NCBI RefSeq assembly: GCF_000721175.1
Contig: NZ_JOEZ01000005.1
Span: forward strand, 124,001-188,000
Direction: 5' to 3'
DNA: 64,000 bases
Source: Streptomyces anulatus
GTDB lineage: Bacteria > Actinomycetota > Actinomycetes > Streptomycetales > Streptomycetaceae
Shown piece after piece: positions 19,697 to 26,867 of this stretch. The position numbers and the translations under genes are program-made. The notes beneath the pieces are model-generated. The model saw nothing but the letters and a program-made list of their open reading frames with translations, was not told where the DNA came from and did not search any database. The stretch's first letter is position 1; every line of letters begins with the position of its first letter.

Positions 19697-20917
19697 TCAC
19701 CACCGGACCGGAACCTTCCGTTCTCCGCGCACGAGCAGCCCCGACATCCGGTCCTCCCCCGGAGCCCCGTCCGGGGCGAGCGTCGGGCAGCGGTCGAGCA
19801 GGGTGCGGAAGACGATGCGCCCTTCCAGACGGGCCAGCGGTGCGCCCAGGCAGTGGTGGACGCCGTGGCCGAACGCCAGATGGCCCCGGCCCCCGGCCTG
19901 CGTGCGGCGGATGTCGAAGCGGTCCGGGGCGGCGAAGCGGGCCGGGTCCCGGTCGGCGTCGGCCAGAGCGATCAGGACCACGGCGCCCGCGGGGACGACC
20001 CGGCCGCCGATCTCCACCGGCTCGACGGCCACCCGGGGCGGTGCGGTCTCCACCGGGGCGTCGTAGCGCAGCATCTCCTCCACCGCCCCCTCCACGAGGC
20101 CGTCCAGGTCGCCGCGGAGCAGGGCGAACTGATCGGGGTGGGCGAAGAGGGCGCGGACGCCCTTGCAGAGGAAGTTCACCGTGGACTCGTGCCCTGCCAG
20201 GAGCAGCAGGAGAGCCATCGATAGCAGCTCGTCCTCACTCATCCGGTCCCCGCCGTCGTCGACCGTGTGGATCAGGTCACTGAGCAGGTCGTCCCCCGGC
20301 GCATCGCGCTTGGCGGCGATCAGCCCACCGAGATACGGCACCGCCTCCGCCTGCGCGGCCCGCGAGGCCTCCGCACCGGTGGGCGCGGTGATCTCGTCGG
20401 ACCACCGCCGGAAGGAGTCCCGGTCCAGGTCCGGGATGCCGAGCAGCTCACAGATGACGGTGATCCGGAGCGGGTAGGCGAGCGCGTCCACCAGATCGGC
20501 CCGGCGGTCCTCGGCGGCGAGCATGTCACTCACCAGCCCGTCGGTGACTTCCTGGATGCGCGGGGCGAGAGCGGCGACGCGGCGCGGGGTGAACGCGCGG
20601 GCGGCCAGCCGCCGCAGCCGGGTGTGGTCAGGCGGGTCGCTCAGCAGCATGTGGGCGTTGCCGGGGCCGTCCGTGGCGGGCGGCGCGTCGAGACCGGTGG
20701 CCAGGTGGCCGTTGCGCCGCCAGTCCCGGCTGAGCCGGGGGTCGGTGAGCGCTTCCCGGCAGGCGTCATGGCCGACGACGAGCCAGAACCGCTCCTCGCC
20801 GCCCCCGCGGATCTCGTGGACGGGTCCTCTGGCCCGCAGCACGGCGTAGGCGGGGTAAGGATCGGACCCGAAGGCGGGGTCGATGTCGAGCAGATCGACC
20901 GCGGCCGGGTCCGTCAC
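19697..20917 (-). CDS. Cytochrome P450 (CYP107-like)
   Basis: GTG at 20917 behind GGGGAG gives 406 residues, the usual bacterial size; a longer frame upstream lacks a ribosome site. The I-helix reads LLLLAGHESTVN with the acid-alcohol pair, the K-helix EEMLRYD, and the heme loop FGHGVHHCLGAPLARLEG with C356 as thiolate ligand. It is a soluble class I monooxygenase needing a ferredoxin, and none is encoded nearby. Its 5' end faces the RiPP precursor gene across a 264-bp region, so it might be a second tailoring enzyme of that cluster, but a separate role is equally likely. Confidence 0.88.
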   Translation of the reverse strand: MTDPAAVDLLDIDPAFGSDPYPAYAVLRARGPVHEIRGGGEERFWLVVGHDACREALTDPRLSRDWRRNGHLATGLDAPPATDGPGNAHMLLSDPPDHTRLRRLAARAFTPRRVAALAPRIQEVTDGLVSDMLAAEDRRADLVDALAYPLRITVICELLGIPDLDRDSFRRWSDEITAPTGAEASRAAQAEAVPYLGGLIAAKRDAPGDDLLSDLIHTVDDGGDRMSEDELLSMALLLLLAGHESTVNFLCKGVRALFAHPDQFALLRGDLDGLVEGAVEEMLRYDAPVETAPPRVAVEPVEIGGRVVPAGAVVLIALADADRDPARFAAPDRFDIRRTQAGGRGHLAFGHGVHHCLGAPLARLEGRIVFRTLLDRCPTLAPDGAPGEDRMSGLLVRGERKVPVRW

Positions 20918-21053
20918 AACAGCTCCCCTGATGAGTCGTGGTGGTGGCGGCCCGCGGGCCGGGTGGGCCCGGAGGCCGTACCGGGCCCGGTGCAGCCGGG
21001 GTGGGGCCGCGAGCCCGGCGGTCCTTTCGGTCACCCTAGCCCGCCAAACTTCC

Positions 21054-21153
21054 TGCCGTAACGGCAAGTTGCCGAAACTTCTCCTGCAACTCTGTTTATC
21101 TGTCGCCACGTTGGGCTAGGTATTCACCGCTGACGACGGTGGTCACACCGTCG
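21054..21153 (+). promoter_or_regulatory. Shared promoter/leader of the RiPP cluster
   Basis: The 264-bp space between the P450 at 20917 and the precursor ATG at 21182 is the AT-richest of the area. It holds TGCCGT-A-ACGGCA at 21054-21066, AGTTGC (21067-21072) facing GCAACT (21086-21091), and near-repeats AAACTTCCTGC and AAACTTCTCCTGC. A leader hairpin CGACGGTG-GTCA-CACCGTCG sits at 21134-21153. I cannot pick a -10/-35 pair with confidence. Confidence 0.5.
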
Positions 21154-21181
21154 ATGTTCCCCACGTACGAGGAGGTGTCCG

Positions 21182-21268
21182 ATGGCTAAGCGCATTCTTT
21201 ACAAGGCTGCGAGCAAGTTCGGCTTCACGACCAAGGGAGCCGCCGGGGCCTACCCCTGGATCCCGTAG
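21182..21268 (+). CDS. RiPP precursor peptide, atropopeptide-like (28 residues)
   Basis: A 28-codon gene with a very strong ribosome site, GAGGAGG, 6 nt before the ATG. The basic leader (MAKRILYKAAS) runs into KFGFTTKGAAGA at residues 12-23, which I associate with leaders of tryptorubin-type atropopeptide precursors. The end is AYPWIP, with Y24 and W26 as the only C-terminal aromatics. A P450 gene follows after a hairpin, the minimal layout of atropopeptide loci in which one P450 joins aromatic side chains. The core differs from the Trp/Tyr-rich hexapeptides I know, so the product would be new. There is no protease gene beside it. Confidence 0.8.
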   Translation: MAKRILYKAASKFGFTTKGAAGAYPWIP

Positions 21269-21284
21269 CTCGTCAGGCCCGATG

Positions 21285-21317
21285 ACGGCCCGGCCCCGCC
21301 TGTCGGGGCCGGGCCGT
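21285..21317 (+). terminator. 13-bp stem attenuator between precursor and P450
   Basis: ACGGCCCGGCCCC at 21285-21297 is the exact reverse complement of 21305-21317, with a 7-nt loop. It starts 17 nt after the precursor stop and ends 23 nt before the P450 start. Partial termination would give many precursor transcripts per P450 transcript, a common RiPP design. Confidence 0.75.
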
Positions 21318-21339
21318 TCTCCGATCCAGGGGTGTCCCG

Positions 21340-22593
21340 TTGACCGAACAGACCATGCCCCGCCGCCCGGTCCGCACGGGAGCGACGCAGGCCGGACTGA
21401 TGGAGCAGTACGAGAAGGACCGCCTCGGCCATCTCCTGGCCTCGGTCGAGCGGCACGGTCCGGTGGTGGAGCTGACCGGGGGCACCGTCCTGGTGAACGA
21501 CCCGGCCGCCGTCCACGACGTGCTCCGCCGCACGAACACCGACTTCCTCGTCACCGGCAACATCCGGCGCGACGAGGTCAGCGGCGTGCGCGGCGACCCG
21601 GCCACCGAAGCGTGGATGCGGGGCCGGCGTGCCACCCAGAAGGGCATGTCTCCCCCGGCGCTGGAGGCCCACCGGGCCTGGCTGGCGGAGGAGACCGGCC
21701 GGCTGTGCGACCGCTGGCGGACCCGCTCCTCGGTCACCGACCCCGTCGCCGAGCTGGAGCAGCTGTCCGCCCGCTCCTTCGCCCGGTTCTGCTTCGGCAC
21801 CCGCGACGCCGGGGCCGCCGCCCCGCGCACCGGCGACCTGCTGAACGCGCTCACCCCGCTGATCAGCAGTCCCTTCCACTTCCCGCCCGCCGTACGCCGT
21901 CTCCTGCCCCGCTACCGCCGGTCGGTCAGCGCGCAGAAGAAGCTCGAGGAGGAGCTGCGCCGGGTGCTCGACGGGCCGGGCGAGGGCGGACTCGTCGCGT
22001 CGCTGGCCGCCTCCGGTCTGGACGGCGAGGCGACGGTCCGCATGCTCGTCTCCAACGGCCTCGCCTCCTACCGGGTCCCGGCCGCCGCCATGACCTGGGC
22101 CCTGGTGGCGCTGGCCCGCGAGCCGGACGTGGCCGAGGAGTGCGCCGCCGCCGTGGACCAGGTCAGCGGTGACACCACCCCGGACATCCTGCGCTGGACG
22201 ATCGCCGAGTCACTGCGCCTGTGGCCGCCCAACTGGCTGATCCTGCGCACGGCCGACGGCGAGCAGACCTGTGGCGGCTGGAGCCTCCCGGCGGGCGCGG
22301 CGGTCATGATCTCGCCGTACGTCATGCACCGCACCGCACCGGTGTTCAGCGACCCCTCGGCGTTCCGCCCGCACCGCTGGGCGTCGCTCCAGCCGGCCGC
22401 CGGGGAGTACCTCCCGTACGGCATCGGCAGCCGCTGGTGCGTCGGCAAGGCGCTGGCGGACCTGGAGCTGGCGACCGTCCTGTCCACGCTCGTGGCCCGG
22501 TTCCGCTTCACCGTGGAGCGCATGGCCCCGCTCCCGGACGTACGGACGACGCTGCTCCCGGCCGGCCTCACCCTGGGGCTGCGGCCCCGTTGA
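21340..22593 (+). CDS. RiPP-modifying cytochrome P450
   Basis: 417 residues from TTG at 21340 (AGGGG upstream; ATG at 21355 is an alternative). The heme loop is YGIGSRWCVGKALADLE with C367, and the K-helix has ESLRLWP. The I-helix region reads ASYRVPAAAMTW (242-253): the usual acid and threonine are replaced by R, V and P. Loss of that pair is seen in P450s that do radical coupling rather than hydroxylation. It follows the precursor gene directly and probably cross-links Y24 and W26 or a backbone atom. Electron-transfer partners are not encoded nearby. Confidence 0.85.
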   Translation: MTEQTMPRRPVRTGATQAGLMEQYEKDRLGHLLASVERHGPVVELTGGTVLVNDPAAVHDVLRRTNTDFLVTGNIRRDEVSGVRGDPATEAWMRGRRATQKGMSPPALEAHRAWLAEETGRLCDRWRTRSSVTDPVAELEQLSARSFARFCFGTRDAGAAAPRTGDLLNALTPLISSPFHFPPAVRRLLPRYRRSVSAQKKLEEELRRVLDGPGEGGLVASLAASGLDGEATVRMLVSNGLASYRVPAAAMTWALVALAREPDVAEECAAAVDQVSGDTTPDILRWTIAESLRLWPPNWLILRTADGEQTCGGWSLPAGAAVMISPYVMHRTAPVFSDPSAFRPHRWASLQPAAGEYLPYGIGSRWCVGKALADLELATVLSTLVARFRFTVERMAPLPDVRTTLLPAGLTLGLRPR

Positions 22594-22725: not shown

Positions 22726-23397
22726 TCAGGGGCCCAGCGTGATGCCGTGGGACGCGGGCCCCAGGCGGGCCCGGTAGCGGCGGATGCCCCAGCTGCGGTG
22801 CTCCAGCTCGGCGGCGACCAGCACCTCGGCCGTGTTCACCGCACCGGGGACGAGCTCCACCAGGGCGGCCACCGGGTGATCGCCGACCAGCGGCACGCGG
22901 CGCAGGCGTCGGAACTCCCACTGCGGGTCCGGCTGGGACGCCCCGTGGCCGCGCACGATCCACTCCTCCCGGCCGGGGCCCGCCTCCGGCTGCCGCTCGA
23001 CGCCCACGTCCACGATGCCGGTGCTGACCGTGAAGCTGAGTCCGGTGCCGGGGCCGGCCGCCGCCGGGCGGGTGCGTACGCCCGGGTCGATGAGCCGGGC
23101 GACGGGCCGTACGGCGGGGTCGGGGGTGGCCAGGGCGACCGCCAGGGAGGCGTGCCGGAACGCGCCCGGTGCCTGCGGGGTCTCCGGGCGGAAGGAGCAC
23201 ACCAGCAGCAGGTGGCGGTACTCCCGCCCGGGTGTGGCCCGGGTGTGGGCGAGCCAGTCGGCGGGGGCGCTCCCGTGGTCGGCGGGCAGCAGGTCCCAGC
23301 CGAAGGTGAGCCGGCCGCGCAGCGCTCCGTCGTCGGCCGGGGCGCCGAGCGTGCGCTCCGGCACGAGGGCGACGTCGTGCAGCTGGACCTCGGTCAT
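22726..23397 (-). CDS. Unknown protein coupled to CHAT protease
   Basis: A 223-residue protein whose ATG at 23397 overlaps the stop of the CHAT gene (ATGA), so both are co-translated. It is beta-rich (EVQLHDVALVPERTLG, GRLTFGWDLLPAD, SFTVSTGIVDVGVE, PQWEFRRLRRVPLVGDHP) with no signal peptide, membrane helix or cysteine motif. I do not recognise the family. Position suggests it is a cofactor, substrate or inhibitor of the CHAT protease. Confidence 0.8.
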   Translation of the reverse strand: MTEVQLHDVALVPERTLGAPADDGALRGRLTFGWDLLPADHGSAPADWLAHTRATPGREYRHLLLVCSFRPETPQAPGAFRHASLAVALATPDPAVRPVARLIDPGVRTRPAAAGPGTGLSFTVSTGIVDVGVERQPEAGPGREEWIVRGHGASQPDPQWEFRRLRRVPLVGDHPVAALVELVPGAVNTAEVLVAAELEHRSWGIRRYRARLGPASHGITLGP

Positions 23398-26300
23398 GCG
23401 TCGGCTCCCTTGCTCCGGCCCAGTAGGCAGGTGAACGCTCCCCAGTCACGGTATGCGGGGTACCGGGCCCGGGTGGCGATCTGTGCTTCGCGGAACGCCT
23501 GCTCGGGGTCGTCGGCCGACCCGGCCCGCAGGTGCAGGCGATGGTAGAAGTACGCGGCCGGTTCGGGGCGGACCGCCCACAGGCAGCCGACGACGGCCTG
23601 CACACCGGCGGTGATCAGCGCCGCCGGGACGCCGCGCACGTTGTCCGCCCGGTCGAAGCGGCCCAGCGCCGACTCGCAGGCGGCGATCGTGACCAGGCGG
23701 ACGCCGCTCAGGTCGAGTTCGAGGAAGTCGTGGGCGAAGAGCCGGCCGTCGTCGTCATCGTCCGGCGTGAGGTAGAGGCAGTGCAGCCAGGGCGCGTCCT
23801 GGTCCATCGTGCCGTGGACGGCGAGGTGGACCACGTCGGCCGTGGCGAGTTCGGCGAGCAGTCCGGCACGGGTGGCGGCCGGACCCGTCAGCGCGTTCGC
23901 ACCGACCGCTGCGGCGACCGTCCGGGCGTGGTCCTCCAACGCGGGCTCGGCGGAGAGTCCGTAGGGGACGCCACCGGCCGCGGAGGCGAGCACCGCCGTG
24001 CGGCGGGGGCGTGCGGGGCCGGCGGCGGGCAGGAGCGCTTCGAGGCCGGCGACGGTGATGACGGTCCACTCGTCGGCGATCATGAGGTCACCGGCGGCGC
24101 ACAGCGCGACCGGCAGGTAGTGCAGTGCGCCGTGCGGCCAGAGCAGGAGGCGGTCCTTGCCCCGGGCGCGCCACGCGGCCCACCGGTCGCCGTCGGGGAG
24201 CGGCAGTTCGTGCCCCGTCAGCAGTCTGCGGCCCTCCGGTGTCACATCGCCGAAGAGCGGATCGCGTTCGACCTCCGTCCGGACCGCCTCGACGAGGTCG
24301 GCTGCGGGATGCCGGTCGGCGTACGCTTCGGCGCCCTCCGGTCCGCCGCCGTCGGGGTCGCCGAGCCACACGATGATCTCGCTGCCCTCGCGGGTGACGG
24401 CGAGCAGGACGGCCGCGCCGTTCACCGCGGTGGGCAGGAACCAGCTGAGCAGGACCGTGCGGTCGTCGAGCAGCTCTCCGGTCCGCGCCCACAGGCGCTC
24501 GTCGTCCACGAACGCCGCCGAGCGTGCGCGCAGTTCGTCGTCGATGAACGAGGAGATGCGCCGGCGCAGGTTACGGGCGAACTCCTCGCGCTCGTCGTCG
24601 GCTTCGCCGGGGTGGTGGTCCGCGTCCAGCACGTCGAGCAGGTTCGCCGTCGTACCGCCGAGGGCGGTGGGACTCTCCAGGGCGCGGAGTCTCCCGACGT
24701 AGTTCTCGATGTGCGCGGGCCGCGTGACCGGGCCGTCGATCCGGCGCCACGCGCCCGCCTCCGGCCCCTTGCCCGCCTGGTGGAGGCCGAGCACCAGCGC
24801 CACCGGCATCGTCTCGATCTCGACGGTGAGCTGCCACAGGGCGGCGTGGACGAGGTCGCGCAGCACCTCGCCGAGCTCGGGGGCACCGCTGGTGTCGAAG
24901 TTCGGGACGTCCACGATGATCGCGTACACGGCGTTCCTGAGGTCGTCGCCGCGGAGCCGCGGTAGGTCGTGGAGGACGGGCAGCAGGCAGGCCTGGGCCA
25001 GTTCCCGCTGGTTCAGCGAGGCGTAGCAGAGCGCGGCGTAGGTGGAGTGCCCCCACGGGAACGGGACCCGGCCGGCCACCGGCTCCCCCCGCTCCACGGC
25101 CAGCCGGTAGAGGTCCGCCGTCAGCAGTCTCACCCCCGCGCCGTCTCCCGGCCCCGCCTGCCGCAGGAGGGCGACGCCCAGCGCGGGCTGCCCCCGGTCG
25201 CGGGCGTGGGCCGCCGTGTGCAGCAGTGCGGCGGAGCGCCGCGCCGCGGGCCAGTCCGCCGGAAAGGACTCCGGGAGCGGGCCGGGGCCGGGGCAGTCGG
25301 TGGGGTCGTCGGGCAGGGCGTGCAGCCGGGCCTCCGTCAGCTGCCGGCGGTGTGCCGGGCCCCGGACGGGGGAGCAGCTGTCGGCCCAGTCCAGTGCGGC
25401 ACGGAGCAGCGGCCGGTCGGAGCGTTCCCGGGCGAGGTTGACGCCCTGGTCGACGGTGCGGGTGGCGACGGCACCGCCGTGCGCGGCGAGGAAGGCACGG
25501 ACGTCCGAGCCGAACACGTTCTCGCGTACGACGTCGACGAGCGTGTCGGGGGCGTCGGGCAGCGACCGGAGCAGGAAGAGCAGCAGGTCCGGTGGAGCGG
25601 CCCCGGGCGCCTCGTACAGTGCGGCGAACGCGGCCCCCGCGGTCTCCTGGTCCACGCCGCCGTCCTCGCCAAGCACCTGGGCCAGCGCGGCCAGGATCAC
25701 CGGACGCAGCGCACTGCCCGGCCCGTTCTCCCGGCCGTCCGACTCGGCCGCCCGTAGCAGCAGTTGCCCTGTCTCCACACGCAGCCGCGCGTCGAACCGC
25801 AACGGCCACCCGGCGCCGGACCGCTGCCGGTGCGGCGGAGAGCGGTACAGGTCCGCGGCGAGCTGGGCGGCCCGTACGGTCCACCGCTCACCGGCGTACA
25901 GGTCGCCGCCGCGATCCTCCGGCCCCAGTACCGCCAGGCGCAGCCTGGCCGCGGCCAGGAGGGCGGCGGCCAGGCCCGGGGAACCCTCCAGCTCCGCGAT
26001 CAGGCGGCCCGCCACCGCGTCGGCCTCCTCGAACACCGAGCGGTCGCACCGTTCCGCGAGAACCGGCGCCGCACTCTCGACCGTACGCAGCGCCGCCTCC
26101 CGCCAGGTGGGCTCCGCCCCGCACTCCTCGGCGACCTCGGCCACCAGCCGCCAGTAGAGGTGCAGGACATCGGCGGGCGCTTCCTGACTCCGGGACGCCT
26201 CCACGGTCAGTGCGTGCAGCATCGCTTCGGCGGTCGGCCCGTGCGCTTCCGCCAGCTCCCGCTCCAGTCCGCGCCGCGTCCGTTCCGTTTCGCGGGCCCG

Positions 26301-26867
26301 CAGCTTGGCGGTGTCGAGCGACAGCACCCGGTCCTTGACATGGAGCGCCAGCTCCAGCAGGACGGACACCGGGTCGAGGACGTAGGTGACGGTGGGCGGC
26401 CCGGCCGCCGCGTGGCCGGGCGGACCGAACCGCACCCGGCCCGCGCAGACCATGCCCCGCCGCGTCTCGTCGGTCAGCACGGCGACCATGTCGCCCGCGG
26501 CCGGCAGCACGTGGGACACCACCAGGACGAGCGATCCGGCACCGGCGACCGTCTCCAGCCAGCCGGGCGGCAGGTCCAGGCCGAGGTCGTACGCCAGCTC
26601 CAGGCCGCCGGGGCCGAAGACGGCGACGTCGCCGGCCGCGTCCCGGTCGACGCACCACCGTGCGTCGACGGGGGCCGCGAACGGCAGTTCGTCCAGCGAG
26701 GTGAGCGCGGCCAGCCCCCGCGCGTACGCCCGGGTGAACAGGCTTCCGCCGGCACCGGCCCCGGTGAACGGGCTGAGCCCCGCCTGCCCCACCGCCAGCC
26801 CGGCGTGCCGGGCTCCGTCCACTTCCGCCAGGAACGCCCAGCCCGTGACATCCCCCGACCGTCGCAC
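23394..26867 (-). CDS. Large CHAT-domain (caspase-like) protease
   Basis: 1157 residues from GTG at 26867 (GAGGGGG upstream). The C-terminal 250 residues form a CHAT domain: WAAWRARGKDRLLLWPHGAL is followed by VVHLAVHG with catalytic H1018 and TIAACESAL with catalytic C1064, then RGVPAALITAGVQAVVGCLW. The long middle is helical with TPR-like character (about 150-800). The first 150 residues look like a separate beta-rich domain. CHAT proteins are His-Cys peptidases related to caspases and act in conflict and cell-death systems, for example Craspase. No Cas, NTPase sensor or toxin gene adjoins it; its only partner is the 223-residue gene downstream. Confidence 0.85.
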   Translation of the reverse strand: MRRSGDVTGWAFLAEVDGARHAGLAVGQAGLSPFTGAGAGGSLFTRAYARGLAALTSLDELPFAAPVDARWCVDRDAAGDVAVFGPGGLELAYDLGLDLPPGWLETVAGAGSLVLVVSHVLPAAGDMVAVLTDETRRGMVCAGRVRFGPPGHAAAGPPTVTYVLDPVSVLLELALHVKDRVLSLDTAKLRARETERTRRGLERELAEAHGPTAEAMLHALTVEASRSQEAPADVLHLYWRLVAEVAEECGAEPTWREAALRTVESAAPVLAERCDRSVFEEADAVAGRLIAELEGSPGLAAALLAAARLRLAVLGPEDRGGDLYAGERWTVRAAQLAADLYRSPPHRQRSGAGWPLRFDARLRVETGQLLLRAAESDGRENGPGSALRPVILAALAQVLGEDGGVDQETAGAAFAALYEAPGAAPPDLLLFLLRSLPDAPDTLVDVVRENVFGSDVRAFLAAHGGAVATRTVDQGVNLARERSDRPLLRAALDWADSCSPVRGPAHRRQLTEARLHALPDDPTDCPGPGPLPESFPADWPAARRSAALLHTAAHARDRGQPALGVALLRQAGPGDGAGVRLLTADLYRLAVERGEPVAGRVPFPWGHSTYAALCYASLNQRELAQACLLPVLHDLPRLRGDDLRNAVYAIIVDVPNFDTSGAPELGEVLRDLVHAALWQLTVEIETMPVALVLGLHQAGKGPEAGAWRRIDGPVTRPAHIENYVGRLRALESPTALGGTTANLLDVLDADHHPGEADDEREEFARNLRRRISSFIDDELRARSAAFVDDERLWARTGELLDDRTVLLSWFLPTAVNGAAVLLAVTREGSEIIVWLGDPDGGGPEGAEAYADRHPAADLVEAVRTEVERDPLFGDVTPEGRRLLTGHELPLPDGDRWAAWRARGKDRLLLWPHGALHYLPVALCAAGDLMIADEWTVITVAGLEALLPAAGPARPRRTAVLASAAGGVPYGLSAEPALEDHARTVAAAVGANALTGPAATRAGLLAELATADVVHLAVHGTMDQDAPWLHCLYLTPDDDDDGRLFAHDFLELDLSGVRLVTIAACESALGRFDRADNVRGVPAALITAGVQAVVGCLWAVRPEPAAYFYHRLHLRAGSADDPEQAFREAQIATRARYPAYRDWGAFTCLLGRSKGADA

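Follow-up and report, generated by a model that had tools for sequence, protein, structure and literature searches.

A conserved Tyr-Pro-Trp precursor gene with an adjoining cytochrome P450 in Streptomyces anulatus, a probable peptide cluster of the pseudosporamide/micitide type

The window analysed here, a stretch of 64,000 nucleotides from the Streptomyces anulatus contig NZ_JOEZ01000005.1, contains a 28-codon open reading frame (ORF) followed immediately by a cytochrome P450 gene, and a second cytochrome P450 gene that diverges from them (Table 1). The small ORF, running from the ATG at 21182 to the TAG at 21266-21268, encodes MAKRILYKAASKFGFTTKGAAGAYPWIP, whose six C-terminal residues are AYPWIP. 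A first-pass annotation had described this locus as one for a ribosomally synthesised and post-translationally modified peptide (RiPP), with a 28-residue precursor, the core AYPWIP, a GAGGAGG ribosome-binding site and an immediate P450. Every one of these elements is present, as are the single Tyr and single Trp separated by Pro that it had read at the C-terminal end. The purine-rich ribosome-binding site is kept in an alignment of five close Streptomyces loci, the window included, and the border between leader and core would lie at about residue 22. We consider it quite probable that this is a RiPP cluster of the pseudosporamide/micitide type, in which the P450 would staple Tyr24 to Trp26 across Pro25.

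Table 1. Features of the precursor-P450 locus (positions in the window)
Feature	Position	Strand	Basis or remark
Second cytochrome P450, 406 aa, proposed tailoring enzyme	19697..20917	-	GTG start at 20917 proposed
Divergent 264-bp intergenic region, second P450 to precursor	20918..21181		Presumed shared promoter region
Ribosome-binding site GAGGAGG	21169..21175	+	Six bases 5' of the ATG
Precursor gene, 28 aa and stop	21182..21268	+	ORF; YPW in 13/13 distinct loci; dN/dS
Precursor parts: leader, about residues 1-22; proposed cross-linked motif Y24-P25-W26; tail I27-P28
Hairpin in precursor-P450 spacer, 15-bp stem, no U-tract	21284..21319	+	Folding and shuffle tests
Cytochrome P450, proposed Tyr-Trp cross-linking enzyme	21340..22593	+	PF00067, family alignment, tree

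A small gene encoding (A/F)YPW and a short tail lies upstream of the P450 in all 13 distinct loci read in which this enzyme has 39% identity or more to that of the window. Seven of these are from Streptomyces (the window included) and six from Micromonosporaceae, the pairs L003/L009 and L004/L010 being taken as duplicates and each counted once. The recurrence of a leader-core precursor with a cognate P450 bears out the P450-RiPP reading of the first-pass annotation. A P450 search of 392 genomes of the genus returned the genome of origin and four others (92, 90, 67 and 63% identity), and a scan of genome contigs yielded three distant matches besides four Streptomyces loci, of which two appear to duplicate G202 and G151. 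A GAYPWIP small ORF precedes the P450 in six further distinct Streptomyces loci, with P450 identities down to 62%; in L005 the precursor extends beyond GAYPWIP with SSR, suggesting that the C-terminal end past YPWIP can vary. A search with the Actinoplanes P450 P0015 through the family to which G841 belongs (300 genomes) gave 11 matches. This family is labelled Micromonosporaceae because the P450 of L016 matches P0015, from Actinoplanes sp. SE50, at 100%. The six best matches (L016-L021) are 39-45% identical to the window P450, and each is accompanied by a small upstream gene ending in AYPWH or FYPWH, the precursor being MI(Q/R/K)RIKARFARKALAGAYPWH in L016-L020 and MLKRAYLTVADKLGFVRKDLAGFYPWH in L021. 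In L019 the YPWH precursor gene is present as two tandem copies ahead of a single P450.

Farther from the window P450 the motif is replaced or absent. The three distant matches (L011-L013, P450 26-35% identical) have no YPW small gene upstream, and five weaker Micromonosporaceae matches (L015, L022-L025, about 31%) have other aromatic tails. Upstream of the P450 in L015, L023, L024 and L025 the tails are of the RYPYWFYxY type, with precursor ends GRYPYWFYNYQ, GRYPYWFYNYPE or GRYPYWFYGYEQ; these very aromatic cores could be multiply cross-linked. The L022 precursor, MITYIRAVGRRLRKARTSGAYLYVPKICR, starts 190 bases 5' of the aligned P450 start and has a Tyr-Leu-Tyr motif and a long tail, its end reading AYLYVPKICR. 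Other searches returned little besides the source genomes: the precursor letters were found only in their own genome among 61, the window P450 likewise in one of 394 genomes of the class, and P0015 in one of 197 genomes of the class (its own) and one of 200 in the order of G054; P0014 gave two matches in 394 genomes of the family, its own and G151.

Comparison of the window precursor with those of L005 and L006 (NG86) gave nonsynonymous divergences (dN) of 0.10-0.12 and synonymous divergences (dS) of 0.70-0.84, that is, dN/dS of about 0.12-0.17, with only synonymous changes in the core. Of its 28 columns, 20 are invariant among four Streptomyces versions. The dN and dS values indicate purifying selection on the precursor gene.

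The 71-nt spacer between precursor and P450 folds into a 15-bp hairpin (-42.5 kcal/mol, z -2.8). Stems of 11-17 bp were found in all eight spacers submitted to shuffle tests, despite differing sequences between lineages, and when G-U pairs were allowed the stem length was reached by at most 2 of 300 shuffles in every one of them; the spacers of L003, L004, L007, L008 and L020 were folded outside this set. Folding energy gave a weaker signal, with 36 of 300 shuffles as low for L005, 18 for L019 and 7 for the window, so that the energies of the L005 and L019 spacers are not unusual. In a stem test restricted to Watson-Crick pairs, four of the eight spacers (window, L006, L016 and L018) exceeded every one of 500 shuffles, and the remaining four did not. 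An intrinsic terminator at this place was considered and discarded after a consensus scan found none, and the hairpin is therefore read as an attenuator or a processing element. We propose that it attenuates transcription or protects an mRNA end, and it likely lowers P450 expression relative to the precursor. On the other side of the precursor gene, a sigma-70 consensus scan of the divergent intergenic region gave zero hits, so a promoter there is presumed from the gene arrangement.

The conserved YPW genes beside homologous P450s, the low dN/dS and the recurring spacer hairpin together argue that the small ORF is a genuine precursor. A spurious ORF next to an ordinary small-molecule oxygenase would be conceivable, given that short ORFs are common and that PF00067 by itself says nothing about peptides. 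However, the peptide is conserved while the P450 diverges to 39%, the pair recurs in all the loci read, and selection on the ORF is accompanied by a good ribosome-binding site. A chance ORF was accordingly rejected, and we give that explanation practically no credence.

The P450 gene opens with a TTG codon and encodes 417 residues (PF00067, E=6.3e-37), an ATG at 21355 being a possible alternative start. The heme ligand Cys367 is present in the motif PYGIGSRWCVG. The acid-alcohol pair of the I-helix is replaced, the enzyme reading ASYRVP where an aligned solved P450 reads AGHETS, and VPA is invariant across the 21 aligned P450 rows (20 of 22 homologs were used, fragments P0017 and P0022 being omitted; the tree was built also without P0001). 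Going by P450s in general, loss of this pair would fit an enzyme that couples radicals rather than one that inserts oxygen. The AlphaFold2 model is a confident P450 fold, with a mean predicted local distance difference test score of 89.7. A fold search returned only generic P450s among the best 50 PDB rows, the best being CYP184A1 at 24% identity, and the biarylitide P450Blt entry 8U2M was not among the best 60 sequence rows or the best 50 structure rows. The P450 tree separates two groups: the enzymes of L016-L020 (support 100/99), and that of L021 together with those of Streptomyces, the window's included (100/95). YPW is present for each row of both groups whose DNA was read; protein-only rows (e.g. 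P0010-P0014, P0016) lie outside this check, and long branches call for caution.

Two known products share the Tyr-Pro-Trp motif. Pseudosporamide, from the Micromonosporaceae genus Pseudosporangium, is N-acetyl-Tyr-Pro-Trp in which a biaryl bond joins Tyr and Trp, and its [M-H]- ion was found at 503.1936 against 503.1931 calculated in that paper (PMC7277628). The value computed here for Ac-YPW minus 2H, 503.1936, fits this ion. Its producer belongs to the family of the Actinoplanes relatives described above; the window core differs in continuing as Ile-Pro. The literature passages covered contain no description of a pseudosporamide gene cluster, and a review mentions a P450-made link between Tyr(i) C3 and Trp(i+2) C5 as 'observed previously in pseudosporamide' (PMC11002830). 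The second product, micitide 982 of the mci cluster (listed in PMC12299652), has been filed as a biarylitide in one paper. Its ring is made of Tyr, Pro and Trp units with a Tyr C6-Trp C5' link, and in its total synthesis Pro was combined with an acid derived from Tyr and an alkyne that gives rise to the Trp unit (PMC13250620). In L016-type precursors, trypsin would cut at the last basic residue ahead of YPW and leave the tail ALAGAYPWH, whose mass after loss of 2H is 982.466, in keeping with the name micitide 982. From this match and from the Tyr/Pro/Trp ring we infer that an L016-type cluster makes micitide, the window holding the Streptomyces counterpart of that cluster. Compared with the L016 type, the window precursor has another leader and ends in IP where those have H; its P450 shares about 41% identity with theirs, and a second P450 is added.

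Like these systems, the window has Tyr-Pro-Trp, here close to the C-terminus of a small precursor, and its P450 is 39-45% identical to those beside Micromonosporaceae YPW precursors. The pathway proposed on this ground would begin with synthesis of the 28-residue precursor, whose N-terminal leader would dock on the adjoining P450. This enzyme would link Tyr24 to Trp26 through their side chains, across Pro25 and with loss of two hydrogens, most likely by the known C-C bond from Tyr C3 to Trp C5. Host peptidases would then trim away the leader, perhaps along with the Ile-Pro tail, and in five of the seven Streptomyces loci an adjacent PikC-type P450 would probably oxidise the product further. 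The first-pass annotation had predicted a new Tyr-Trp cross-linked peptide. A Tyr-Trp cross-link is indeed likely; its newness is doubtful, the type being probably already known from pseudosporamide and micitide 982.

The same annotation had associated the leader with atropopeptides, and the likeness to tryptorubin and scabrirubin is real in that both have a short leader-core precursor, a P450 immediately 3' and an aromatic C-terminus. However, atropopeptides are defined by a KSLK-type leader motif and a Trp at core position 2 (xWxxxx) (PMC11450843). None of six such strings (KSLK, RSLK, ESLK, KSRK, KPLK, PSLK) occurs in the 28-mer, and the Trp of AYPWIP is at position 4; NCBIfam models gave zero matches to the precursor, even at E<=1. 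Membership of the tryptorubin family was thus rejected by the published definition, and we regard it as very improbable. With biarylitides (BytA/BytO) the window has in common two aromatic residues at i/i+2 and a P450, but its precursor has 28 residues, whereas theirs is a pentapeptide of the MxYxY/H type. A literature text search for AYPWIP core strings returned no RiPP paper by title.

The nearest solved structure by sequence for the second P450 is PikC (E=5e-126). Counterparts of this gene occur in five of the seven Streptomyces loci and in two different arrangements. In L008, L030 and L031 the homolog stands in the same place as in the window; in L028 (G322; RiPP P450 63% identical) a 69% homolog lies downstream in convergent orientation, and apart from the two P450s and the ORFs opposite them this locus shares no ORF of at least 90 aa with the window (E<=1e-15). 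The six Micromonosporaceae loci have no second P450 within the fetched 19.5 kb, and the best match in 36 other relatives was 63%. In a tree of 52 rows, built with 47 of the 120 listed hits (1830 in all), the copies of the window, L008, L028, L030 and L031 and P0023-P0029 form a group of 12 with 100/100 support, apart from the other 40. A FastTree of 131 rows (the 120 listed hits plus the copies of the window, of four cluster loci and of six further loci) grouped the same 12 without intruder (support 0.998); both trees were midpoint-rooted. Adjacency to the RiPP P450 was seen for five of the 12. Three other members are named after S. uncialis, S. mayteni and S. prasinus, species also among the owners of RiPP P450s; in the case of S. 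mayteni the longest contig is equally long, 176724, for both clusters. P0023, P0025 and P0029 have no such tie by name; P0029 adjoins the L028 copy in the tree and P0024 the L031 copy. Since the RiPP-linked copies group together and adjacency occurs in two arrangements, these data support co-inheritance of the second P450 with the precursor-P450 pair. Its likeliest role is probably oxidation of the stapled peptide. The minimal two-gene locus of the first-pass annotation is hence correct as to the gene pair and probably incomplete.

Several points weigh against the interpretation as a whole. The identity of MciA/MciB with the L016 type is deduced from mass. At L007 the flanking sequence fetched, about 5 kb upstream and 8 kb downstream, lacks the second P450, and the fragmented genome G097 gave no match to it above 47%. 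The identity gap that sets its group apart is small, 69% for the lowest member against up to 66% outside it, among the matches listed. Finally, being only about 41% identical to the enzymes of L016-L020, the window P450 may possibly join another Tyr-Trp atom pair, e.g. Tyr C6-Trp N1 as in lapparbin, where the P450 SlpB also cross-links Tyr and Trp but through a C-N bond. The same RiPP with a different bond, whether this one, a Tyr ether or a link from Tyr or Trp to the backbone, would bring a linkage new for YPW, and RiPP P450s do form varied Tyr(i)-Trp(i+2) links, C-N included (PMC11002830), lapparbin probably being the C-N case meant by the review. Such a bond nevertheless appears unlikely to us, as all loci read on either side of the deepest ingroup fork in the P450 tree have retained YPW and the known YPW product has a C-C bond. 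The C3-C5 staple of the pseudosporamide type is hence preferred.

Tailoring genes differ by lineage: the PikC-type P450 in Streptomyces, genes for TauD, an FMN dehydrogenase, an alpha/beta hydrolase and a major facilitator superfamily transporter in five Micromonosporaceae, and M28 in the sixth. The four genes, as read in L032, were matched in all four other GAYPWH loci, where nine other L032 ORFs tested were unmatched at E<=1e-20; the M28 peptidase gene lies 3' of the P450 in L037. Upstream of the L007 precursor a neighbouring PspAB-like gene is retained although the second P450 is gone. Directly 3' of the RiPP P450 of the window, on the minus strand (22726-26867), are genes for a CHAT-domain protein (1157 aa) and a 223-aa partner without a Pfam hit. 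This module has homologs in L007 and L030. L008 and L031 give no match to it, and the genes on its far side are matched there at about 1.4-2.5 kb from the P450 start, as against 5-6.7 kb. The CHAT-domain pair thus appears to be a module that is either present or absent.

The locus is best described as a genuine conserved P450-RiPP pair of the pseudosporamide/micitide kind, and by definition not an atropopeptide. The part that may be new is the co-inherited second P450. We tentatively suggest, at somewhat less than even confidence, a two-P450 branch of YPW peptides in which stapling would be followed by PikC-type oxidation of the strained macrocycle or of the Ile-Pro tail; the oxidised YPWIP product would then differ from both pseudosporamide and micitide, and lineages would swap tailoring modules round an unchanged YPW core. 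The 84-nt coding sequence would represent the Streptomyces branch of the YPW-stapled peptides, and the family offers a candidate genomic origin for pseudosporamide. Its three-residue core remains constant while leaders, tails and tailoring genes are exchanged, and the set of precursor-P450 pairs could be used for testing the specificity of P450 macrocyclases. If the second P450 does act on the stapled peptide, it would add an oxidation step to the small YPW family.
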